A DNA stretch of 42,552 bases from a virus, in IMG/VR virus record IMGVR_UViG_3300025128_000098, positions 1 through 42,552 of that record; one strand, written 5' to 3'. A program made the position numbers and the translations under genes. The notes under the pieces were generated by a model. It saw only the letters and a list, made by a program, of their open reading frames with translations, ran no database searches and was not told the DNA's origin. The number at the start of each line of letters is the position of its first letter. The first letter of the stretch is position 1. Below, one piece after another: positions 3 to 39,700 of this stretch.

Positions 3-2666
3 GATAATCTTTTTCAAAACAGAGCAAGTAAGGATGAAAGGTTTATAATAACAGCAGCTAGACATTTTGAAAACAAAAGAGTTCTTGCAGATCAAGAAGC
101 AAGAGCATTTATGGCAAACAAAGGTTATTTTTTAGACGATCCTATTTTAACTTTTCAATCTTTAGCTAAACAAACAATACCTGTTACTGAGTTTTCTAGG
201 GTTTTTGGAGCAAGAGGAGAAAGACTACAAGGGTTTATTAATGGTATAAGACGAGAAGTTTATGGTGGTTCAGATACAACAAACAATACAAGCCTTAAAA
301 AAATAGCAGACAAATATGTTAAAGATTTAAAAGGAACTGTTGATGGTTATTTTGGTTTACATCATGCAGAAAGATCAGTTGCTAATAATGAAACAGCAGC
401 ATCTACTGTAGCAATTCTACAAGCTTTACTAGCAACTACTAAACTTACAAAAGTAGCTTTACCGAGTTTTGGTGATCTTATACAAACTTACAAAAACAGT
501 GGATTCTCTGCTGGTTTTGAAGCAACAAAAAAACAAATAGTTCGTATGCGTAACGAAGATCAGTTTAGACCTTCTGAAGCTTTAGGACTTAGAACAGTAA
601 AAAGTAAAGAAGATTTAAAAGGTGCTGAAAAAATAGGAGATGTTCTTTGGAATAATAGAAGATATAATGGTCTATTAGATAGAGTAATGGCTGAGTGGAT
701 GATTGAAATTAATCCTGCCAATTTAACTCAAAGATATGCACAAGAATATCAGCGTAAATTTTTTGAAATTGTTCAACTTGGTAGGATTACTAGGTTTGCA
801 AGAGAATTTGCATTTGATGCAGGAGCTATTAGAGCATGGCAAATAGGGCAAAAAATAGGAGACAAAGGAAAAGTTAAAAGAAGTTTATTAAAAGAACTAA
901 GTGATATAGGTTTAGATGTAGATAGCGCTAGGTATCTTAGTAAGTTTAAAAAGATGGATGACATACAAGGAGATGAAGTAGCAGAAAGATTAATCAATAG
1001 AGCAGGATTTAAGTCAGCAGAAAGAGATGCACTTATACCTACAGTTGGTAATAGACGATTATTTGCAGCTTCAAGAGATCCGTCAGTTCGTTTTTTAGGA
1101 AGTTTTCTTTCTTGGGCGCAAGCAAAAACAACACAAACAAATGCTCTTGTTACTCGTTTAGAAAATGGAGATGCTGCTTTAGGTGCAAGAATGATAGGTG
1201 CTTTATCAGTTTATGCTTCAATAAGACAACTACAACTAGATTTAAACTCATCAGAAGCCTTTAGGGATGATACGTTAATTTCAGAAAGTAAAGAAATAGA
1301 TCCTTTATTAACAAAATTAGGAGACACTGTTATCTTTTCTGCTGAAGTAATGCCTTGGTATTTAGACAAAGCAGTAAATACAATACGTTATGATTATGGT
1401 AGTAATCCTGTAACAGGACTTGCTCCTGTGTTAGAACTAATGGATGACTTAGTAACTGAATCAATAAAAGCTGGAAGAGGTGTAGACGAAGCCTTACAAG
1501 AAGGAGATAGAGAAGAACTTGTTGAAGGTTTAGTAGGTATTGGTGAAACTCTTGTTCCGTTCTTTAAAGATTGGTCGAGAAGTTATAGTGGTCTTTTTGG
1601 TATGGGAGGTCAGAAAAAAATAGCTGAACTAAAAGGAGAAAAGTATGCTCCTGTTCAATATAAATTTGAAGGATCAAAGCCAAGATATAAAAATTTCAAA
1701 GGCGGTGAAGTCTCAGAAGAAAACCCTGTACCTAACGCTGCTCCAGAACCTTCTGAAAGAATCAACCCTTATACTGGAGAGCCTTACGAATCTGAGATGG
1801 AACGTCTTGGTTTTAAAGACGGCTTACTTGTATCTATTGGTGTTGCACCTGTATCCGATAAAGAAATTAATAAATTAAAGAAGTCTTTAAAGAAACGACA
1901 AGCTAAACGAAATGGTGGTAAAGCTACTCGTAACTACGCAAAAGAATACGCTAATTACCATTCTTCTGAAAAACAAAAGAAAGACAGGGCGCACAGAAAC
2001 AACGCAAACAGGCAGTTAAAAAGAGAAGGAAGAATTGCAGCAGGTGATGGTAAAGATGTCGATCATAAAGATGGTAATCCTAGAAATAATTCACCAAGTA
2101 ATTTAACTGTTAAAAGTAAACATACAAATAGAACAAGAAAGTTTGCTGGTGGTATGTTAATAAAAGCTTTAGCACAAAGACAAGCTCAAAAGTTTGAAGA
2201 AGAAATGCCTGAAGATGCGAAAACTTATAGACAGTTTTATCGTTTTGCAAGAGAACAAGGGCTTTCTCATCCTGAAGCAGTAGCTGCTCAAGCCAGTTTA
2301 GAATCAGGACACGGTAAATCAGAGCTTGCTCTAAATCAAAACAATGTTTTAGGTATAAAAGTTCAAAGAAAGAAAGAGGTAGAAGAACAAGAATCTGTTT
2401 CTATGCCTACTGTTGAATACGAAGACGGAAAGAAAAAAGTTATTGATGCAAACTTTAGAGTGTTTGACAATGTTAGGGATTCATTTAAAGGATATGAAGA
2501 AAAAACAGCGCACGAAAGATATAATAAAGCAAAAGAAGCTGAATCAGCAGAACAATATTTAAGAGAGATACAGGAAGCAGGATATGCAACTGATCCAAAC
2601 TACGCAGATAAAACAATTGATATTATGAATCGTTATTCAGATTATATTTCTCCTAGATTTAAATAA
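3..2666 (+). CDS. C-terminal part of a giant virion protein with HNH nuclease and glucosaminidase domains (5' end outside window)
   Basis: The frame is open to the left edge, so the gene starts outside the window; the first ATG inside is at 111. The long N-terminal part looks like the C-terminal region of a large internal/ejected virion protein of podoviruses. Around 2030-2130 there is an HNH-like signature (VDHKDGNPRNN...NL, preceded by a Lys/Arg-rich stretch). Around 2220-2480 there is a FlgJ/GH73-type glucosaminidase signature (HPEAVAAQASLESGHGKSE followed by NNVLGIK), with the presumed catalytic Glu in ESGHGKS. Glucosaminidases of this type cut peptidoglycan, fitting entry through the wall; the nuclease domain could act on host DNA or be a remnant. 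The right-edge virion genes probably lead into this one on a circular map. The domain calls are motif-based and fairly safe; the role of the first 600 residues is inferred. Confidence 0.8.
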   Translation, partial: DNLFQNRASKDERFIITAARHFENKRVLADQEARAFMANKGYFLDDPILTFQSLAKQTIPVTEFSRVFGARGERLQGFINGIRREVYGGSDTTNNTSLKKIADKYVKDLKGTVDGYFGLHHAERSVANNETAASTVAILQALLATTKLTKVALPSFGDLIQTYKNSGFSAGFEATKKQIVRMRNEDQFRPSEALGLRTVKSKEDLKGAEKIGDVLWNNRRYNGLLDRVMAEWMIEINPANLTQRYAQEYQRKFFEIVQLGRITRFAREFAFDAGAIRAWQIGQKIGDKGKVKRSLLKELSDIGLDVDSARYLSKFKKMDDIQGDEVAERLINRAGFKSAERDALIPTVGNRRLFAASRDPSVRFLGSFLSWAQAKTTQTNALVTRLENGDAALGARMIGALSVYASIRQLQLDLNSSEAFRDDTLISESKEIDPLLTKLGDTVIFSAEVMPWYLDKAVNTIRYDYGSNPVTGLAPVLELMDDLVTESIKAGRGVDEALQEGDREELVEGLVGIGETLVPFFKDWSRSYSGLFGMGGQKKIAELKGEKYAPVQYKFEGSKPRYKNFKGGEVSEENPVPNAAPEPSERINPYTGEPYESEMERLGFKDGLLVSIGVAPVSDKEINKLKKSLKKRQAKRNGGKATRNYAKEYANYHSSEKQKKDRAHRNNANRQLKREGRIAAGDGKDVDHKDGNPRNNSPSNLTVKSKHTNRTRKFAGGMLIKALAQRQAQKFEEEMPEDAKTYRQFYRFAREQGLSHPEAVAAQASLESGHGKSELALNQNNVLGIKVQRKKEVEEQESVSMPTVEYEDGKKKVIDANFRVFDNVRDSFKGYEEKTAHERYNKAKEAESAEQYLREIQEAGYATDPNYADKTIDIMNRYSDYISPRFK

Positions 2667-2669
2667 TAC

Positions 2670-2698
2670 TTGACAAAACTTAAAAAGGATACTATACT
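2670..2698 (+). promoter_or_regulatory. Late sigma70-type promoter P-lysis (TTGACA, 17 bp, TATACT)
   Basis: A perfect -35 (TTGACA, 2670-2675) lies exactly 17 bp from TATACT (2693-2698), in the short gap after the giant virion gene. The context CTTGACAAA...TATACTA recurs at 24910 and 27232, so it looks like a phage late promoter family read by host RNA polymerase. The -10 touches the ATG of the next ORF. A start point about 7 nt downstream would lie inside that ORF, so the promoter may mainly serve the holin-like genes. Confidence 0.75.
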
Positions 2699-2875
2699 AT
2701 GTTACTATACACCGAAGAACAATTAGAAAATGCTTACGATATTTATCGTACTCATCAAGCCAGACAAGATTTAAGCTTTATGAGTTTAGAACATTTTCGA
2801 TTATTCTATGAACAACTGGCTGAAGAAGTCTTAACAGGTGACATAGAGGAGAGTTATGGTGGGTTTTCCATTTGA
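2699..2875 (+). CDS. Small acidic hypothetical protein (58 aa)
   Basis: The ORF begins MLLYTEEQLENAYDIYRTHQ and continues as a Glu-rich, probably helical protein with no membrane segment. Its ATG abuts the -10 element of the promoter at 2670 and has no Shine-Dalgarno, so it must be read from upstream transcripts or start at a later codon (an internal ATG lies at 2780). It overlaps the next gene, whose SD and start at 2856 lie inside it. I do not recognise a family. The sequence is not low-complexity and fills the gap precisely, which supports it being real. Confidence 0.5.
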   Translation: MLLYTEEQLENAYDIYRTHQARQDLSFMSLEHFRLFYEQLAEEVLTGDIEESYGGFSI

Positions 2876-3299
2876 AATAATTACGATGCTTGGCTCTACT
2901 TTGCTAAGTAGTTTGCTAAGTATATGGTCGCAAAGTCGCAAGGCTAAAGAAGAACAACAAAAACTTCTTATAACGAGAGGTGAGTTCGAGATGAAAGCCA
3001 AGCAACAGTCTCTTGATCACGGATTAAAAGACAAAGGTTTTGCTTGGACACGAAGAATCATAGCTTTGGTTTCTGTATTCGCAATAGTAGTGCTGCCAAA
3101 AATGGTCGCAGTATTTTATCCAGATGTGGATGTAACAGTCGGATACACCAATTGGAATCCGGGTTTTTGGTTTTTTAGAGAAGGTAGAGAGATTTTTGAA
3201 TGGATTACTTTTCAAGGTTTGGTAATAACGCAATTAGATACCAATTTAGTATCGGCTATAATTGGCATGTACTTTGGTGGTAGTCTAGTTAAGAAGTAG
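2856..3299 (+). CDS. Holin-like membrane protein (147 aa)
   Basis: An amphipathic N-terminus (MLGSTLLSSLLSIW) is followed by a charged coiled segment rich in Lys/Glu/Gln, an Arg-Arg-flanked hydrophobic segment at about residues 66-85 (IIALVSVFAIVVLPK), an aromatic loop with several Trp/Phe, and a final hydrophobic segment (LVSAIIGMYFGG). This layout resembles the three-segment holins of marine phages and gene transfer agents (GTA_holin_3TM-like). A strong SD (GAGGAG) precedes the ATG at 2856, which overlaps the upstream 58-aa ORF. Neighbouring small membrane proteins and the muralytic domain upstream suggest a lysis cassette. The holin role is inferred from topology, not shown. Confidence 0.6.
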   Translation: MVGFPFEIITMLGSTLLSSLLSIWSQSRKAKEEQQKLLITRGEFEMKAKQQSLDHGLKDKGFAWTRRIIALVSVFAIVVLPKMVAVFYPDVDVTVGYTNWNPGFWFFREGREIFEWITFQGLVITQLDTNLVSAIIGMYFGGSLVKK

Positions 3300-4613: not shown

Positions 4614-5777
4614 ATGATAAACAAAACTAAAACTTTATTTGGAGCTTTGATTTTATCTGCTCTTTTCTTTGGAGGTCCTGCGCAGGCAGATCAAACAGGT
4701 GATTGTACAGCAGGTGAGCAGTATTGTGAACAGAACTCGTTGAACACAACCAACACCACAACGACCACAAATACCAACACTAACACTAATACCAACACTA
4801 ACACTAATACTAATACTAACAACAACACAAATACAAACACAACAACGACTACTGGAACGCAAACCAATACCAATAATAATACGAACACTAACAGCAGTAC
4901 AAATACAAGCACTAACACTAACACTAACAATAACACTAGCACCGCTACAAATACAAATAATAATAACAATGTTAACTCGACTACGACAACTGGTACGAAC
5001 ACCAACAACAACACAAATGTTAACACTAGTACATCTACTAGTTCTAGTACCAATAACAATACAACTAATTCAACTGTTTCTAGTACGGTAAATACTACTA
5101 ATAGTAATACAAATAATAACAATAACACCAGTACATCTACAAATACTAATAACAATAACAACAATAGTACAAGTAATAATACTAATAATAATACGAACAC
5201 TAATGTAAACAAATCTGATTCAACTTCTCAAGTTACATCAAACAATAAGAACGTAAACGAAAACAAAAACACTTCAGACAACACCAACAGAAACATAAAT
5301 GAAAGCAAGTCTGAACAGGTTATCACACAAAATATCAATCAAAAAGCACCGCCTGCTTCTGCGATTGCTCCTTCTATTATGAGCTACAGCCAAGACCTTT
5401 GTACGGTTGGAAGGTCAGGTGCATATCAAGGACAAGTGTTTGGTTTCTCTACAGGTCGTACAGTCCGTGACGAAAACTGTGAACGCTTAAAGCTTTCCAA
5501 GTATCTATACGATACAGGCATGAAAGTAGCCAGTGTCTCTATACTTTGCCAAGACCCTCGTGTTTTTAAAGCAATGTCTATGGCAGGCACTCCATGTCCT
5601 TACGAAGGAAAGATTGGTGACGAAGCAAAACTTGCATGGAAAGAAAACATTACAGATAGACCTGATTACATCGAAGCAAAGGCTCAATACTTAAAGAAGT
5701 GTAAAGGTACTAGAAATAAAAGTAATCTGAAAAAGTCGAGGCTGACTTGTGCTAGGGAATTTGACAAAGGCATTTAG
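4614..5777 (+). CDS. Exported Asn/Thr-repeat protein with conserved Cys-containing C-terminal domain
   Basis: The start at 4614 has an excellent SD (GAGGAGG). A classical signal peptide (residues 1-25, Lys-rich then hydrophobic, ending AQA) directs export. Residues ~43-210 are almost pure Asn/Thr/Ser, followed by a Lys/Asn/Glu linker. From about residue 245 a C-terminal domain has four Cys (DLCTVGRSGAYQGQ, ENCERLKL, ILCQDPRVF, PCPYEGK). Similar C-terminal domains occur in exported or virion-linked proteins of large marine phages. The Asn/Thr tract would be flexible and sticky, like repeat regions of surface adhesins. The 3' end overlaps the next exported-protein gene by 29 nt, so the two are likely made together. 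No activity can be assigned. Confidence 0.8.
   Translation: MINKTKTLFGALILSALFFGGPAQADQTGDCTAGEQYCEQNSLNTTNTTTTTNTNTNTNTNTNTNTNTNNNTNTNTTTTTGTQTNTNNNTNTNSSTNTSTNTNTNNNTSTATNTNNNNNVNSTTTTGTNTNNNTNVNTSTSTSSSTNNNTTNSTVSSTVNTTNSNTNNNNNTSTSTNTNNNNNNSTSNNTNNNTNTNVNKSDSTSQVTSNNKNVNENKNTSDNTNRNINESKSEQVITQNINQKAPPASAIAPSIMSYSQDLCTVGRSGAYQGQVFGFSTGRTVRDENCERLKLSKYLYDTGMKVASVSILCQDPRVFKAMSMAGTPCPYEGKIGDEAKLAWKENITDRPDYIEAKAQYLKKCKGTRNKSNLKKSRLTCAREFDKGI
4741..5215 (+). repeat. Degenerate AAC/ACT-type codon repeat encoding the Asn/Thr tract
   Basis: About 475 bp consists nearly entirely of AAY, ACN and AGY codons in short alternating runs (for example aacactaacactaatacc). It is a candidate for slippage and length variation between related phages. 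The absence of stops on the opposite strand here is a composition effect, not evidence of an antisense gene. Confidence 0.8.
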
Positions 5778-19635: not shown

Positions 19636-19857
19636 TTACCTCTCGAAATGATATGTTCTAGGATTTTCCAATCCATTTATTAGTTTAATTCGCTTCATGC
19701 CACGCATTTTGAATATGCCCTTAGTCAAAAGATTATAATCACTTTCGTTATCTAATCTAATGACCAAAGACCTATCCTTAAATTGGCGCAGATATTCTCT
19801 AGCCTCTCCGACACTTTTAAGATTCAACTTAATGCCGTAGTATATAGACTCTATCAT
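19636..19857 (-). CDS. Small basic hypothetical protein (73 aa)
   Basis: Joined to the DUF932 gene by a GTGACATGA overlap, so it is probably translated by re-initiation. It is basic, with a likely alpha/beta fold (SVGEAREYLRQFKDRSLVIRLDNESDYNLL, MRGMKRIKLI). It may act with the DUF932 protein. No family is recognised. Confidence 0.6.
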   Translation of the reverse strand: MIESIYYGIKLNLKSVGEAREYLRQFKDRSLVIRLDNESDYNLLTKGIFKMRGMKRIKLINGLENPRTYHFER

Positions 19858-20786
19858 GTCACCAAATCTAAATGAGGAAGCATCTTCTCATTCAAAGTCT
19901 TTCTAACTTTGTCGAGCCTATCCAGTTTAACAGATGCAAAGTTCTTCTGAGTTATTTTCCTAGTAGGAAACTCATGTGTTGCCCACTCAGTCATAGCATT
20001 GTATAATGCCCACGCTGTAGAATCAAGTGACTTTTTATTCCATAACCAACGAGCATATAAAGATTCTAATGTTTTATTACGAATGACATCAGGCTCATAT
20101 AGAATAGCGTCAGCCGAAAGCCCTGTTGATAAATGACTATCAACTGTTTTAGCATTAGCCAAGTGAGATACTATAGAAATAGCATCACCATTTGTTATCT
20201 TAGTATCAACCATCTCTTTCCATAACTCAGTTTCTTGGTCGTAGAATATAACAGCTTCTGATAATTTATTAGCAACGTGCTGTAGATTAAGACCTCTAGT
20301 GTGTTTAGATTTGTGGATTGCAAAGTTATTTGCGAACACTTGAAGATTGGTACAGATAAATCTATAGCCACCCACTTCAACTACAAACGACCACGATCCA
20401 TCAAAACTGTTTCGTGCTGATATAGTTAGCGCAACATCATCGCCTTCTCTACCTAGATTAACGCGGTGATTAGGAAGTGTGTATGTTGCATAGGCTCTTG
20501 CCCCGTTATGTGAACAACCCACATCTCTAGTAATGCCGTCAATGTTTAAGTCAGACAGCATGATTACATTCTCTGCTGTTTTAAAAGCATCAGGATGATT
20601 GACTGGATTGTAGTTTTTACCGACCACACCAATAGCAAAGTCATTATCGTTTCTAACGATTGCTTTGTGACTATTTACATGTGTATCATAATTGGCACAG
20701 CTAACAAACATATCGTCTTTACGGACTGTGAAGTCAGCATTGCCATAATCACCTAGGTTCTCTAGGATTTCTGCTCTATTATTCAT
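19854..20786 (-). CDS. DUF932 (phage/plasmid-like, TIGR03299-type) protein
   Basis: The family features are visible: AIVRNDNDFAIGVVGKNYNPVNHPDAF near residues 43-70, a central beta-rich part (VALTISARNSFDGSWSFVVEVGGYRFICTNLQVF), and the helical end DKVRKTLNEKMLPHLD. DUF932 proteins are common on phages and plasmids and are thought to act in DNA metabolism, but their activity is unknown. At 310 aa the length is normal. A short AGAGG precedes ATG 20786. Upstream lies a gene-remnant region rather than an obvious promoter. Confidence 0.85.
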   Translation of the reverse strand: MNNRAEILENLGDYGNADFTVRKDDMFVSCANYDTHVNSHKAIVRNDNDFAIGVVGKNYNPVNHPDAFKTAENVIMLSDLNIDGITRDVGCSHNGARAYATYTLPNHRVNLGREGDDVALTISARNSFDGSWSFVVEVGGYRFICTNLQVFANNFAIHKSKHTRGLNLQHVANKLSEAVIFYDQETELWKEMVDTKITNGDAISIVSHLANAKTVDSHLSTGLSADAILYEPDVIRNKTLESLYARWLWNKKSLDSTAWALYNAMTEWATHEFPTRKITQKNFASVKLDRLDKVRKTLNEKMLPHLDLVT

Positions 20787-22834: not shown

Positions 22835-22876
22835 AACTAACTCCAATTTATTTTGTTTGACTGCTGTTGCCCCCTT

Positions 22877-22904
22877 ATTGTACCAGCTTTTTTCTCGCTG
22901 TCAA
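22877..22904 (-). promoter_or_regulatory. Sigma70 promoter (TTGACA, 16 bp, TACAAT)
   Basis: On the minus strand a perfect -35 (22904-22899) and TACAAT (22882-22877) are 16 bp apart. It sits at the left border of the origin-like region and drives the 82-aa gene. This is the fourth strong leftward promoter in the early region. Confidence 0.7.
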
Positions 22905-22924
22905 TCCCTAATTTAAATTAATTA

Positions 22925-23103
22925 ATTTATATTTGTGTGTATTTTCTGTGGATAAATGTGTGATTATTTGTTAATATTCTGTGGATAAGTCTGATAATTG
23001 TGTGTATATACTGTTAATATTTGATTTTATGCCCTCAATAAGAGGCGCAAGAGTTTATTTTTTATAAATTTTTTTTAAATTATAAAACAAAAAAAATAAA
23101 ATC
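22925..23103. other. Putative replication origin with two DnaA boxes, iterons and an AT-rich tract
   Basis: Two perfect DnaA boxes (TGTGGATAA, the complement of TTATCCACA) lie at 22947-22955 and 22980-22988. They are 33 bp apart (three helical turns), within a repeated 12-mer TTCTGTGGATAA. Two further 10-mers also occur twice: TTGTGTGTAT (22933-22942, 22998-23007) and TGTTAATATT (22969-22978, 23012-23021). A nearly pure A/T tract (23048-23103) follows, as expected for an unwinding element. This suggests initiation by host DnaA. No gene is present here. Confidence 0.6.
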
Positions 23104-23162
23104 ATGTATCCCCCAATGGCATCTAAAATTTTATAAAAATTTTGAGAACAAATGCAAGTGGA
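23104..23162. repeat. Left split inverted repeat of a 1.58-kb module
   Basis: It has two blocks: ATGTATCCCCCAATGGCAT (23104-23122) and GAGAACAAATGCAAGTGGA (23144-23162), separated by a self-complementary A/T hairpin. Both reappear inverted at 24563-24581 (19/19 identical) and 24663-24680 (18/19, one indel). The two ends enclose two genes and the structured RNA region. Confidence 0.85.
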
Positions 23163-23183
23163 GCGCTTTAAAAAGCGCAAAAA

Positions 23184-23281
23184 AATTCCTAATAATCCAC
23201 TGCTTAGTAAACAAACCGTATTTAATATTATATAAAAGGTGAGCGGTTGTACTGATTGCAGTATTTGGATTATTAGGAATT
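23184..23281 (-). repeat. 16-bp perfect inverted repeat with foldable 66-nt loop
   Basis: AATTCCTAATAATCCA (23184-23199) is repeated inverted at 23266-23281. The loop continues the pairing with interruptions (CTGC/GCAG, AGTA/TACT, AACCG/CGGTT), giving a ~98-nt imperfect hairpin. On the minus strand the 3' arm runs into seven T residues, so it may terminate the 23932-23293 transcript. It could equally be an origin-associated cruciform. A small GCGCTT/AAGCGC hairpin lies just beyond at 23163-23178. Confidence 0.65.
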
Positions 23282-23292
23282 AACATCATTCG

Positions 23293-23685
23293 CTAAGTTG
23301 TTTTAGCACGATCAGCATAGTACTGATTAGCTGAATCGAGGAACTTTTTAACGAACGCAACATTAAAGCTGTTGCTATTTTTAGCAAGATCAATAAGCTT
23401 ACTGACATCTCCTCGATTCATGTTCTCTGCCACCGTGTAGGTATTAAGAAGATGAATAGCGAATGATGAAGGCTTGCGGTTCCTACCTTGAAAGTAAGGA
23501 AAGTCGCTGGTTTTAGCACTAGCTATATGATTATGCCGTTTTAAGATCTTCGATTTCAAAGACTCTTTGTATAAATAAACCAGATAACTACACTGATCCA
23601 TTGTAGGTTCGTCTTTAGCAGACGTTTCGAAGATCGACTGGTGAACGGAACCGCCAGCCTCGGTTTTAGTTGATGATTTTGTCAT
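23293..23685 (-). CDS. Hypothetical protein (130 aa) inside the inverted-repeat module
   Basis: The start ATG 23685 has a GGGAG SD; a GTG three bases upstream is an alternative. The N-terminal ~30 residues are polar and probably disordered (STKTEAGGSVHQS). A helical, basic middle follows (YLVYLYKESLKSKILKRHNHIASAKTSDFPYFQGRNRKPS), then a helical C-terminus (KLIDLAKNSNSFNVAFVKKFLDSANQYYADR). It overlaps the upstream 88-aa gene by 20 nt, so the two are a coupled pair. The basic middle suggests nucleic-acid binding, possibly of the neighbouring RNA or origin. No family is recognised. Confidence 0.6.
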   Translation of the reverse strand: MTKSSTKTEAGGSVHQSIFETSAKDEPTMDQCSYLVYLYKESLKSKILKRHNHIASAKTSDFPYFQGRNRKPSSFAIHLLNTYTVAENMNRGDVSKLIDLAKNSNSFNVAFVKKFLDSANQYYADRAKTT

Positions 23686-23932
23686 CACATACTCCCATTA
23701 TAATCTCTTGATTAAGAGAAACCTGTCGATTAATAAAAGCTTCATCGTCAGCCGACAGACCTGATGACAAAACTGTAAGAACTAATTCGTCTTTGCCTAT
23801 GATGTCATTACTGGTTTTAAGAGCTAACCAGATTGCATGACTAGACAAGAACTCATAAGCTTCAACTATGCTGTCAAATTCAATGACATCTTGATCAGCA
23901 AAGACAAGGTGAATTTTTACTTTAGATTTCAT
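23666..23932 (-). CDS. Acidic hypothetical protein (88 aa) inside the inverted-repeat module
   Basis: An acidic, hydrophobic-patterned protein (HLVFADQDVIEFDSIVEAYEFLSSHAIWLALKTSNDIIGKDELVLTVLSSGL) with a strong SD (AAGGAG). A possible promoter lies just upstream (23961-23988). It overlaps the basic 130-aa gene by 20 nt; an acidic/basic coupled pair is typical of interacting partners, including toxin-antitoxin-like pairs, but nothing here proves that. It lies immediately downstream of the giant RNA region on the same strand. Confidence 0.6.
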   Translation of the reverse strand: MKSKVKIHLVFADQDVIEFDSIVEAYEFLSSHAIWLALKTSNDIIGKDELVLTVLSSGLSADDEAFINRQVSLNQEIIMGVCDDKIIN

Positions 23933-23960
23933 ATATACTCCTTATAAACATTAATAATTA

Positions 23961-23988
23961 ATTATACTATTCCCTACCGAAAACACAA
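23961..23988 (-). promoter_or_regulatory. Possible promoter for the 88/130-aa gene pair
   Basis: On the minus strand TTGTGT (23988-23983) and a perfect TATAAT (23966-23961) are 16 bp apart, 28 bp before the start codon. The -35 is only a partial match, and the element overlaps the last hairpin arm of the structured RNA. Confidence 0.5.
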
Positions 23989-24851
23989 CAATTATAATCA
24001 GCACGCGTTGCGTGAAGCTTTCCGAGCTTGTTTGCTATATATAACAAGCTGGAACGCAACTTCTTTTAAGTGCTGATTATAATTGTATTTTCTGAGCTTG
24101 TCAGATTTCAATGCGATATAAAAAGATGCACAACTCTGTGTGCTGTCTGCGACTGCTTTTTATATCTTTGACATTGAAATCTTAGAATTTTCATACTGGC
24201 TTTCAGCCAGGACTTACAAATTCTTGACAAGGCTCAGAAGTGTTTTCATCATGATAGTCCAACACTCACTAGTTTTCTTTGCATACAGTCTTCACAGATC
24301 AACAAGCCCAGTACGGCTTTTGATCCTATCAAATAATTTCAGAGAGTGATACGACCACGACGAAGGTCGAACGATGCTAATCGTGAGTAAAACCAAGGAA
24401 GTGGCTCTGAAATTATATTGAGAACTGTGAAGACGGTAAAGAAAATGTTGGACAAATATAGAAACAAAAGCCTACAAAGTCTAGCAACTTTGTAAACTTC
24501 ATATTAATTTACAGAGATAAGTGGTGTTTACAAAGGACTTTGTAGGCTTTTACCGTCAATATTCCACTTGCATTTGTTCTCCTGCCTAGGAATTTCAAAT
24601 ACTTAGAAGAACTTTGAAGGTATGTCTGGTTATTCTCCAAAGACTATGCAACCCTAGGCAGGATGCCATGGGGGATACATGGGTATATATGTAATACTCA
24701 TACAAAATTCTAACATTCATTTGTCAACCAGACCCGCCGACAACAAGCTGCCCTCAACCCAGAAGATTTATAACTTAACTATACTACATAGTGTGCGCTA
24801 CGCACGTTATATTTGTGTAGAAAAGAAGGAGGGTTTACCGGCTGGCTGCCT
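23967..24851 (-). ncRNA. Giant ornate structured non-coding RNA candidate (up to ~880 nt)
   Basis: There is no credible gene in this stretch, which is dense in perfect inverted repeats. (A) 23988-24004/24070-24086 (17 bp), enclosing 24007-24013/24054-24060 and 24025-24032/24043-24050. (B) A three-way junction: 24090-24103/24225-24239; 24103-24113/24172-24182 and 24115-24125/24156-24166 (11 bp each); 24184-24190/24218-24224 around CTGGCT/AGCCAG. (C) 24258-24264/24446-24452, 24273-24280/24438-24445, 24288-24297/24425-24434, 24333-24344/24405-24416, plus small hairpins. (D) 24466-24480/24537-24551 (15 bp) with 24488-24497/24526-24535. (E) 24581-24590/24653-24662. A strong promoter at 24858-24886 reads in from the right; arm A followed by a T-rich tract may be the 3' end. 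Size and multi-junction design recall GOLLD/ROOL phage RNAs; class membership is not established. Confidence 0.6.
24563..24680. repeat. Right split inverted repeat of the 1.58-kb module
   Basis: TCCACTTGCATTTGTTCTC (24563-24581) and ATGCCATGGGGGATACAT (24663-24680) are the inverted counterparts of the left end (23104-23162). Here the two blocks are separated by a larger hairpin closed by CCTGCCTAGG/CCTAGGCAGG (24581-24590 and 24653-24662). Confidence 0.85.
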
Positions 24852-24857
24852 AAGAAT

Positions 24858-24886
24858 ATTTTACAGTTGTTTTTCGGTTTTGTCAA
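24858..24886 (-). promoter_or_regulatory. Strong leftward promoter for the structured RNA / early block (TTGACA, 17 bp, TAAAAT)
   Basis: On the minus strand a perfect -35 (24886-24881) and TAAAAT (24863-24858) are 17 bp apart, matching 11 of 12 consensus positions. The predicted start is ~24851, about 920 nt before the first downstream gene, so most of the transcript is non-coding. It is back-to-back with the rightward late promoter at 24910. Confidence 0.75.
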
Positions 24887-24909
24887 GGAATATTTAATTT
24901 ATTTTTTAC

Positions 24910-24937
24910 TTGACAAACCTGATATTGGCTGTATACT
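24910..24937 (+). promoter_or_regulatory. Late promoter for the terminase/structural block (TTGACA, 16 bp, TATACT)
   Basis: TTGACA (24910-24915) and TATACT (24932-24937) are 16 bp apart in the shared CTTGACAAA...TATACTA context. Six bases separate the -10 from ATG 24944, so normal initiation would start the mRNA at or next to the start codon, giving a leaderless terS message. Confidence 0.8.
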
Positions 24938-24943
24938 AGATGT

Positions 24944-25363
24944 ATGAGTCAATTAACCACACTAAATCAAACAAGTACAAGGAAATTATCAGATAAACAA
25001 CAAAGTTTCCTAGATAACCTTGTAGAAACCAAGGGTGATGCCAAGCTTGCAGCACAAATGTCAGGCTATAAAAGCTCTCATTACCATTTATTAAAGAGTT
25101 TAAAGCAAGAAGTACTAGATATAACACAAGAAATACTGGCGCAGTCAGCTCCTAAAGCAGCTTTTAAGCTCTTAGAGATCATGGAGTCTGATAGACCCAT
25201 ACCTCAAGCAAGTAATAAGCTACAAGCAGCGCAATCAGTCCTAGATCGCGTGGGTGTTGTTAAAAGTGAACGCTTAGATGTGAACCATACGGCAGGCGGT
25301 GGTATATTTTTACTACCAGAAAAACGTATAATAGATGTAGAGGAAGTAAAAGATGCAGAGTGA
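24944..25363 (+). CDS. terS: Terminase small subunit
   Basis: A 139-aa protein with an N-terminal helix-turn-helix-like region (SDKQQSFLDNLVETKGDAKLAAQMSGYKSSHYHLLKSLKQEVLD), a helical middle (APKAAFKLLEIMES, QAAQSVLDRVGVVK) and a C-terminal GGGIFLLPEK typical of phage small terminases. It recognises the packaging site and delivers DNA to the large subunit, encoded 1.9 kb downstream. No SD precedes the ATG, and the promoter -10 ends 6 nt upstream, implying leaderless translation. It is the first gene of the late block. Confidence 0.85.
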   Translation: MSQLTTLNQTSTRKLSDKQQSFLDNLVETKGDAKLAAQMSGYKSSHYHLLKSLKQEVLDITQEILAQSAPKAAFKLLEIMESDRPIPQASNKLQAAQSVLDRVGVVKSERLDVNHTAGGGIFLLPEKRIIDVEEVKDAE

Positions 25364-36764: not shown

Positions 36765-39700
36765 ATGGCACAAAGTTATACAAGACAAAGTAGTTTTAGT
36801 GATGGAGATACCATTACTGCTGCATTGTTTAACAACGAATACAACCAATTAGTAAATGCATTTACATATAGTTCTAGTAGTGCTTCAAGCACTGGACACA
36901 GACACGATGGTACAGCAGGACATGGTGGTAATATACACACTATAGGAGATTTAGATTTCCTTAATAAAATTGTTGCAGATAGTACAAATAATCGTTGGGG
37001 AATATTTGTTCAGGTATCTTCTTCCGCAGTTGAACAAATTAGAATCCAAGATGGAGCTATTGTACCAGTAACAGACAACGACATAGATTTAGGTACAAGC
37101 TCAGTAGAATTTAAAGATGCATACTTTGATGGTACAGTTACAACTGATGCATTGGTTGCAGATACAGCCGACATAAACGGAGGAACTGTTGACGGAGCAA
37201 TTATTGGTGGTTCAAGTGCAGCAGCCATTACAGGTACAGCCATTACAGGTACAAGCTTTGTAATTGGTTCAGCAGACATTTCTGAAGCAGAACTAGAAAC
37301 AATTGATGGAGTTACAGCAGGAACTGTTGCAGCTTCTAAAGCAGTAGTCGTAGATTCAAATAAAGATGCAGCTTCTTTTAGAAACATTACACTTACAGGC
37401 GAACTTGATGCAGCTACACTTGATATAAGTGGAGATGCTGATATTGATGGTACAACTAATCTAGATGTAGTAGATATAGACGGTGCAGTTGATATGGCTA
37501 CTACACTTACTGTAGCAGGTAACGTAGACTTTAACGGAGATTTAGACGTAGATGGTACAACTAACTTAGATGTTGTAGACATTGACGGAGCTGTTGACAT
37601 GGCTACAACTCTTGCAGTTGCAGGCAATGTAGACTTTAACGGAGATTTAGATGTAGACGGTACTACTAACCTTGATGTCGTGGACATTGATGGTGCAGTT
37701 GATATGGCTTCTACACTAGCAGTTGCAGGTGTTTTAACAGGAGCCTCTTTAGATATTAGTGGCGATATAGACATAGACGGTACTTCAAACTTAGACATAG
37801 TTGATATTGATGGTGCTGTTGACATGGCTACAACTCTTACAGTTGGTGGTGAAATAACAGCAGCTAGTCTAGATATATCAGGAAACGTAGATATAGACGG
37901 TACTCTTGAAACAGATGCACTTACTATTGATGGTACTACACTCGCAGAAACAATTAGTGATACAGTCGGTGCAATGGTTGGCTCTAATACTGAAACTGGT
38001 ATTACTGTTACTTATGAAGACGGAGACAATACTTTAGACTTTGCAATCGGTACACTTAATCAAGACACTACAGGAACAGCAGATAATATTACAGTCTCTG
38101 CAAATAACAGCACAGACGAAACTGTTTATCCAGTATTCGTAGACGGTGCTACAGGTTCTCAAGGAGCAGAGTCTGATACAGGACTTAATTATAATCCTAG
38201 CACAGGAATGTTGACCACTACAGGAGTTACTGCAACATTTACAGGTAATATAACAGGTAATGTAACAGGTAATACAAGTGGTACAGCAGCCACAGTAACA
38301 GGAGCAGCACAATCAAACATTACAAGTCTTGGAACGCTTACAACTCTTACAGTTGATAATGTAATTGTAAACGGCACAACTATAGGACATACATCAGATA
38401 CTGATTTAATAACACTAGCAGATGGAAATGTTACTATTGCAGGAGAACTTGATCTAACTACTTTAGATGTATCAGGTGATGCTGACATTGACGGCACACT
38501 CGAAGCAGATGCAATTACCATTGGTGGTACAACTCTAGCAGAATTTATTTCTGATACAGCAGGTGCTATGTTTTCAAGCAATACTGAAACAGGAATCACT
38601 GCTACGTATCAAGATGCTGACAACACAATTGATTTAGTTGTCGGAACATTAAACCAAGATACTACAGGTACTGCTTCTAAAGTTACAGTATCAGACAGTA
38701 CAGCAAACACTAATTTCCCTGTAGTCTTTCATGATGAGTCTAATGCACTATTAGATGATACAGGAGCTTTAAGATATAATCCAAGCACAGGAGAACTGTT
38801 AGTTCCTAAACTGACTGTAGCAGGTACAACTACTACAGCAGATACAGTAACTATGCAGGCTTCAAATGCTATTATCTTTGAAGGTGCTACAGCAGACTCA
38901 AACGAAACTACGCTTAGTATCGTAGACCCAACTTCAGACCACACACAATATTTAATTAATCAAGGTGGATACATTCCAGTCTTAGCAGCCGCTACAACGA
39001 CTGCAATTACTTCGACACCTGCAGAACTAAATATCCTTGATGGTGTTACAAGTACTGCAGCAGAGTTAAACATCCTAGATGGTGTTACAAGTACTGCAGC
39101 AGAACTAAATATCTTAGACGGAGCAACAGTTGTTGTAGGTGAAATAAATGCATTAGACTTAGGCTCAACGGCTGTCGGTACAGCAATAGCCTCTAAAGCA
39201 GTTATACTCGATTCCAATAAAGATTACACAGGTTTAAGAAACTTAACCATTACAGGTGAGTTAGATGCAGCCACATTAGATATAAGTGGTGATGTAGACA
39301 TTGACGGAACTTTAGAAACAGACAACCTAACAGTTGGTGGCGCACAAGGTTCTGACGGACAAGTATTGACTTCAACAGGAAGTGGAGTAGCTTGGGAAAA
39401 TGCAAGTAGTGGTGCAGTTTCAGCAATAAACAATGCTACAGCAAATGAGCTAGTAACAATTGGAAGCACTACTACGGAACTAGATGCAGAAGCTAATCTT
39501 GTTTTTGATGGCACTAATCTTGGAATCGGAACCGCAAGCCCAAGTACCAATCTACATATTTACTCAACAGCAGATAACGCACCACATCTTCTTTTAGAAA
39601 ACTTCCAAAACGCTGACACAGACGATGCACCAGTCATTGAGTTATATACAAATGACCAAACAACTGGTGGCATTGGCGATGATACAGACGTTGGTGTTAT

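Follow-up and report, generated by a model that had tools for sequence, protein, structure and literature searches.

GOLLD, ROOL and OLE are marked by their assembly into homo-oligomeric complexes or cages, and ColE1 RNA II and the T4 R-loop origins are structured transcripts tied to replication origins. GOLLD and ROOL are very large phage RNAs with ornate predicted structures, often located near tRNA islands (PMC12286853). Type I toxin-antitoxin systems (hok-like; timP, PMC11228461) include inactive mRNAs in which a small ORF has its ribosome-binding site sequestered intramolecularly; such an mRNA has a long 5' leader and is closed by long-range pairing. Obelisks, which are also marine, are circular RNA replicons without a DNA form, folded as rods of about 1 kb with paired coding and non-coding halves; their protein Oblin-1 is about 200 aa long, and some of them carry hammerhead ribozymes (PMC11922315). 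The cabRNA of staphylococcal phages is a structured RNA of up to 400 nt derived from terS-terL, and its sensing by bacterial cGAS triggers immunity and does not block it (PMC10686824).

The locus compared here with these systems lies in the IMG/VR virus record IMGVR_UViG_3300025128_000098, all 42,552 bp of which make up the window. It is a module that is predicted to fold and has two leftward ORFs, ORF1 and ORF2. The module resembles GOLLD and ROOL as a very large and ornate predicted phage RNA, but unlike them it holds two ORFs, its primary sequence is hardly conserved and it is not beside tRNAs. By analogy, it appears most like a self-folded inactive type I toxin-antitoxin mRNA, with which it would share the long 5' leader, the long-range closure and, as proposed below, the sequestered ribosome-binding site. 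That nearest working likeness is far smaller, since the present fold covers 1.1-2 kb over whole coding regions and the terminator, and the module has two soluble-looking ORFs. In the relatives L018, L096, L098, L017 and L110, but not in the window, the predicted fold is an obelisk-like rod with paired halves. This rod form would be obelisk-like in shape only: the module is part of contigs that carry terminase and portal genes and belong to dsDNA phages, stands behind a bacterial promoter and ahead of a terminator, and has no Rfam ribozyme match, and its ORFs, 56-150 aa across modules, are set apart from Oblin-1 by size and have no counterpart in Pfam, PHROG or the PDB. Like cabRNA, it would yield a structured phage RNA of the terminase region; however, cabRNA arises from within terS-terL, whereas the module RNA would diverge from terS and contain genes of its own. 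As in ColE1 RNA II and the T4 R-loop origins, a structured transcript would run into an AT-rich stretch by initiator sites, but here with two ORFs inside the structured RNA.

Setting and extent of the folded module

The window's TerL shares 62-65% identity with the large terminases of the SAR11 phages HTVC115P, HTVC103P and HTVC104P and 44-49% with those of other HMO-2011-type phages, and the genome is, judged by its sequence, HMO-2011-type and SAR11-phage-like. The replication genes start at about 23 kb and point leftward, whereas the structural genes point rightward, beginning with a small-terminase-like gene at 24,944; the folded module lies between the two sets, left of terS (Table 1). The published pelagiphage transcriptome that was found concerns other phage types, and promoters, non-coding RNA and replication origins did not turn up when the HMO-2011-type genome paper was searched by word. 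No tRNA or tmRNA was found in the window, and BLASTN of the folded region against phage records gave 0 matches.

Table 1. Coordinates of the features in and around the module
Feature	Position in window	Strand	Remark
DnaA boxes x2, TGTGGATAA	22947-22955, 22980-22988	-	
Iteron GCCCTCAAT	23031..23039	+	Further GCCCTCAA copy at 24750-24757
AT-rich stretch, DnaA boxes/iteron to helix B	23040..23143		Seen in the sequence
Closing helix A, 3' arm	23103..23123	-	Past the terminator-like hairpin
Closing helix B, 3' arm	23144..23162	-	19 bp, perfect
Terminator-like hairpin 3' of ORF2, then T7	23184..23281	-	15-16 bp stem; textbook terminators here in relatives
ORF2, 131 aa	23293..23688	-	Homologues in 12 other modules; 74 IMG/VR modules by HMM
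ORF1, 88 aa	23666..23932	-	Homologues at this site in 11 other modules
Domain F: three-way junction 24090-24239 and long hairpin 23988-24086	23979..24247	-	
Branched domain E	24257..24453	-	Similar domain in L093 4318-4510
Long hairpin D	24456..24562	-	Compensatory changes vs L093 4520-4609
Closing helix B, 5' arm	24563..24581	-	19 bp, perfect; pair probability 0.99
Hairpin C, CTGCCTAGGG/TCCTAGGCAG and inner stem	24582..24661	-	Between closing helices A and B
Conserved leader element CTGGTTGAC..TTTTGTATGAG..ATATATA..TCCTGCC	24657..24732	-	Same place in >30 relatives
Closing helix A, 5' arm	24662..24681	-	20 bp, one bulge; pair probability 0.99
Putative leftward promoter TTGACA-17-TAAAAT, leader start	24858..24886	-	11/12 matches
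Putative terS promoter TTGACA-16-TATACT	24910..24937	+	Rightward, divergent

The original prediction had described a giant ornate non-coding RNA of about 880 nt with a near-consensus leftward promoter at its right end. This promoter was present, about 925 nt ahead of ORF1, and almost every one of about 30 relatives has TTGACA-17-TATAAT or a near-consensus form of it at the same place. The conserved consensus suggests that the promoter is strong, although it is no proof of transcription. The conserved leader element lies 100-390 nt past the promoter in the relatives, where its rough form is CTGGTTNAC...AAAATGTATRAG...ATAGATATA...GGTCTCCTGCC. It was also found in relatives without ORF1 and ORF2, and part of it, together with the leftward promoter, occurs in two cultured phages, HTVC115P and HTVC103P. 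When the window's own leader was used as the pattern for a scan, only known relatives and chance matches were recovered.

The nested inverted repeats and the three-way junction of the original prediction were all present. A 17-bp inverted repeat was located at 23988-24004/24070-24086 and a 16-bp inverted repeat at 24466-24481/24536-24551. The predicted folding energy of the 885-nt stretch was -292.7 kcal/mol on the leftward strand, compared with -209.9 ± 5.4 kcal/mol for dinucleotide shuffles (z = -15.3), and the other strand gave z = -15.4. This energy and the compensatory changes in homologues described below bore out the giant ornate structure. The proposed length of about 880 nt and non-coding nature were not supported, since the folded unit measures about 1.6 kb (23,100-24,700), encloses two conserved leftward ORFs and is hyper-folded where those ORFs are present. 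In the part covered by a sliding scan, strong folding began at about 24,750 and ended near 22,950, with nearly nothing further left.

The unit is closed by helices A and B, the arms of which are 1.4-1.6 kb apart. In the window the ORFs are predicted to pair with themselves and their ends are shut by these two helices, and the same arrangement was obtained for the relatives L091 and L093; no antisense pairing between leader and ORFs was detectable in any of the three. The two ribosome-binding sites of the window are half buried (predicted 0.44 unpaired).

A covariance-model search of the window gave no Rfam gathering match, and GOLLD, ROOL and OLE were absent at E<=10 over 22850-25000, which agrees with the earlier view that neither GOLLD nor ROOL is matched and that this may be a new class. 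Rfam matches in 26 relatives were limited to two tRNAs, on the minus strand of L096 (1121-1202) and L098 (981-1060). Identity with GOLLD or ROOL was dropped for want of a covariance-model match in the window or the relatives. A group I or group II intron was likewise dropped, as the intron covariance models were unmatched, and so was a ribozyme, as the Rfam scans returned no ribozyme family.

AlphaFold2 predicted a small beta-beta-alpha-beta-alpha fold for ORF1 (mean pLDDT 84) and, with low confidence, an all-alpha structure for ORF2 (pLDDT 67.6). No significant match to Pfam, PHROG, PADLOC, PDB sequences or known folds was obtained for either protein, and searches of both found no defence or anti-defence family, no small membrane toxin family of the type I toxin-antitoxin kind and, by fold search, no RNA-binding fold. 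There were no relatives of ORF1 or ORF2 among 50,697 phage records and none of ORF2 in bacterial genomes, and single-protein scans of IMG/VR with either gave no match.

Conservation and covariation among the relatives

Relatives were gathered through TerL, TerS and ORF2 alignments and through the leader-element pattern, a scan with which yielded 99 distinct element-bearing modules in IMG/VR, 74 of them with ORF2. The hyper-folding goes with ORF1 and ORF2, since the ratio of minimum free energy to shuffles was 1.43-1.99 in 14 modules containing them and 1.08-1.36 in 23 relatives that had the promoter and the element without the ORFs (14/14 vs 0/23 hyper-folded); six control regions gave 1.03-1.12. 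Whole-module shuffles were few (4-8), so that these ratios are safer than the z-scores, which are rough. A terminator-like hairpin and a T run are located 3' of ORF2 in most modules.

The terS product of L091 is 96% identical to that of the window and those of L093/L102 are 87% identical. The flanks of these relatives align well with the window, but most of the folded leader is unalignable. The window, L091 and L093 have a common layout of A, C, B, D, further domains, ORF1 and ORF2, followed by the terminator-like hairpin and, last, by two 3' arms, that of B before that of A. Closing helix A shows compensatory changes against both L091 and L093; for its inner half the window has ATGGCATC/GATGCCAT, L093 has ATGGTCTC/GAGACCAT and L091 has CTGTCATC/GATGACAG, and an equivalent helix was significant in 32 of 46 lineages. 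The place of helix B is occupied by helices of other sequence (42 bp in L091, 21 bp in L093), and that of hairpin C by a hairpin of other sequence in both. The coding RNA of ORF2 is predicted to fold within itself, with compensatory changes in its helices; for one of them the window has GATCTTCGA/TCGAAGATC, L093 has GATTTTCGCC/GGCGAAAATC and L091 has CAAGAGCCG/CGGCTCTTG. In the ORF2 codon alignment, 77% of the window's predicted pairs were kept in L093, compared with 36-45% in slid controls, and 11 double changes separated the two.

Most ORF2-bearing IMG/VR modules (55/74) have a leader that is an imperfect reverse complement of their own ORF1-ORF2. In L018 the complementarity of the leader takes in the whole 599-nt length of ORF1-ORF2 (71% identity, E = 1e-75), and similar complementarity was found for L017, L019, L096, L098 and L110; the ORF starts of L110 were 1-2 nt off in this comparison, which does not affect the conclusion. 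The match is private, as the L018 leader scored 229 against its own ORFs and 28, a background value, against the homologous ORFs of L019. In the rod lineages the leader is also complementary to the terminator stem (25/30) and to the Shine-Dalgarno region of ORF1 (19/30), and the ribosome-binding sites of most rods are predicted to be only 0.1-0.25 unpaired.

The covarying pairs by which the original prediction was to be judged were found in homologues, so that its refutation through absent compensatory changes clearly fails. Between leader and ORFs of alignable pairs of rods, 242 double changes from one Watson-Crick pair to another were counted, while 44 were expected when the leader changes were reshuffled, a 5.5-fold excess of compensated changes. 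In L149/L155, 8 of 10 coding-side changes were compensated. Over eight pairs of modules the compensated sites were scattered and did not form tracts, and more than half of them alter an amino acid. Alignment A7, with ten sequences, contains consensus helices spanning more than 1,200 columns, and 92.0% of its cells were paired, compared with 33.7-48.6% when slid, a control that is flattering because the structure was derived from A7 itself. Its 173 double-changed cells compare with 64 ± 6 for shuffles, and no shuffle out of 500 reached that count; its ORF1 Shine-Dalgarno helix was 98% paired. Modules without the mirror had 27 double changes where 3 were expected. The 242 and 44 are independent of the A7 structure, and all such pair counts are taken over relatives that are not phylogenetically independent. 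Since pairing was kept through matched mutations while the sequence changed almost wholly, the fold itself appears to be protected by evolution.

Readings of the module

The best reading, which we hold tentatively, is a self-folding messenger in which a leader gates two genes and a terminator. The putative strong leftward promoter would give a transcript of about 1.7 kb with a long leader, ORF1, ORF2 and the terminator, and the leader would fold this transcript upon itself, by pairing that covariation shows. A rod-type leader would pair along both coding regions, over the Shine-Dalgarno sequence of ORF1 and into the terminator stem. In the window, long-range closing helices and dense local hairpins, some within ORF2, would take the leader's job. 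Because the rod leaders cover the Shine-Dalgarno sequence and the terminator, and the ribosome-binding sites of rods are buried, we infer that the fold could hold both ORFs translationally silent and that it may open (melt) the terminator; the folded transcript might also be nuclease-resistant. Translation early in infection would then be triggered by RNase cleavage or by a phage protein, perhaps that of ORF1 or ORF2. It is conceivable, rather than probable, that the module is a novel type of genetic unit in dsDNA phages of the sea, a self-complementary messenger whose leader mirrors in antisense both genes, the start signal and the terminator that follow it and is updated as they change. Regulation would then rest on folding back whole genes and not on a short switch, and closing helices and self-folding coding sequence would stand in for the mirror in the window's clade.

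If the self-folding messenger or a related reading is true, an RNA or DNA structure has been selected more strongly than its own sequence over the span of whole genes. The module comes from an abundant group of ocean phages and is absent from isolates and databases. Its dozens of natural alleles form a test bed in which coding changes, even amino-acid changes, are matched hundreds of bases away.

If the mRNA were the selected molecule, a higher tolerance for G.U than for A.C would be expected. One-sided changes on the rods' mRNA strand, however, comprised 204 G.U and 286 A.C (about 0.47 and 0.65, respectively, relative to unpaired leader sites), and the non-rod set gave 18 G.U and 23 A.C. Closing helix A, moreover, lies past the terminator and outside any terminated mRNA. 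The messenger reading is also weakened by the window's ribosome-binding sites being no more than half buried, by the undetectable leader-ORF antisense there and by the slightly better opposite-strand fold of the rods given below. The missing wobble preference in rods and this outer helix make a DNA-level palindrome a serious rival, even if a rather unlikely one. Under this reading the module would be either an imperfect palindrome of giant size lying where phage replication starts or a cassette between inverted repeats; it would work as folded ssDNA, or its arms would be kept alike through template switching in replication, with transcription incidental. An origin role is the main rival because these strand data and the outer helix are joined by DnaA boxes, iterons and the skew minimum. 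Among 44 modules, DnaA boxes beside ORF2 numbered 38 vs 4 in two control stretches, and the TTGAGGG motif 3' of ORF2 numbered 52 vs 3 in controls, so that boxes and TTGAGGGC iterons adjoin the module. Clustered initiator boxes and an AT-rich stretch, which are hallmarks of an origin, coincide with the cumulative GC-skew minimum at 23-25 kb, a minimum that is confounded by gene orientation. On the other side, the compensated changes are dispersed single sites, which speaks against gene conversion, and an origin or templating would leave the restriction of hyper-folding to modules with ORF1 and ORF2 unexplained. The window's clade, furthermore, has an RNA-like bias on the leftward strand, with G.U over A.C at 10:2, and the G.U count in the fold, 32 vs 19, points the same way. 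These data raise the question why the mRNA strand of the rods shows no wobble preference, the answer to which could tell selection at the RNA level from selection at the DNA level.

A giant structured RNA that acts in its own right, such as the scaffold, cage or decoy proposed for GOLLD and ROOL, is unlikely. ORF1 and ORF2 would be its partners or passengers, and in rods the RNA could be that of the opposite strand. The size and folding density, the covarying closing helix that joins the 5' and 3' ends and the strict tie to ORF1 and ORF2 fit such an RNA. Relative to shuffles, 20 of the 22 rods listed had a slightly better fold on the opposite strand (33 of 49 representatives covered), with up to 64 G.U pairs. 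L145, L170, L191, L183, L136 and L148 have 47-64 G.U on the opposite strand vs 12-17 on the mRNA strand, an asymmetry that is unaccounted for by the self-folding messenger. Nevertheless, no opposite-strand consensus promoter was found up to 520 nt downstream of ORF2 in 18 modules, the folded sequence is almost unconserved, unlike that of known functional giant RNAs, and ORF1 and ORF2 have no recognised RNA-binding fold.

An anti-defence or decoy RNA, that is, abundant early dsRNA that would soak up a host RNase or a defence based on RNA sensing and would account for the fast change of sequence and the swapping of cassettes, is very improbable. Modules do differ between phages whose flanks are 85-92% identical, and host RNA sensors exist, for example the bacterial cGAS that senses terS-terL RNA (PMC10686824). 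However, the structured RNA of that study triggers immunity and does not block it, the module proteins match no defence or anti-defence family, and a decoy would not need a leader that tracks the coding sequence. A relic of an inverted duplication of both genes, decaying neutrally and folding by chance, is suggested by the rod leader being an inverted copy but was dropped with hardly any doubt, since leaders match their own ORFs only, even where the ORFs are homologous, compensated changes are in excess, and the mismatch types look random, unlike single mutational steps from paired bases.

Variable content at the locus and elsewhere in the genome

The leaders of L011-L015 and L017 are near-identical as far as the CTCCTGCC element and have unrelated content beyond it, so that the locus left of terS looks like a place where close phages exchange alternative cargo. 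In L055 the hypervariable locus left of terS holds a gene for a DUF932 protein (2150-3139, 4e-21), and the window has a DUF932 protein at 19854-20786 (6e-24). L136, L150, L180, L187 and others contain repeated AAAGGTACA / GTACCTTT motifs 3' of ORF2, where AT-rich sequence separates the iterons from the gene that follows.

Elsewhere in the window, the gene at 111-2666 encodes an 851-aa protein with DVDHKDGNPRNNSPSNL, an HNH-nuclease-like motif, and a peptidoglycan-hydrolase-like C-terminal part, both recognised by eye only. A very long low-complexity tract of Asn/Thr occurs in the 387-aa protein encoded at 4614-5777, and the region 37331-39310 contains internal repeats, about 72-74% identical in DNA, within a tail-fibre-like gene of 1571 aa.
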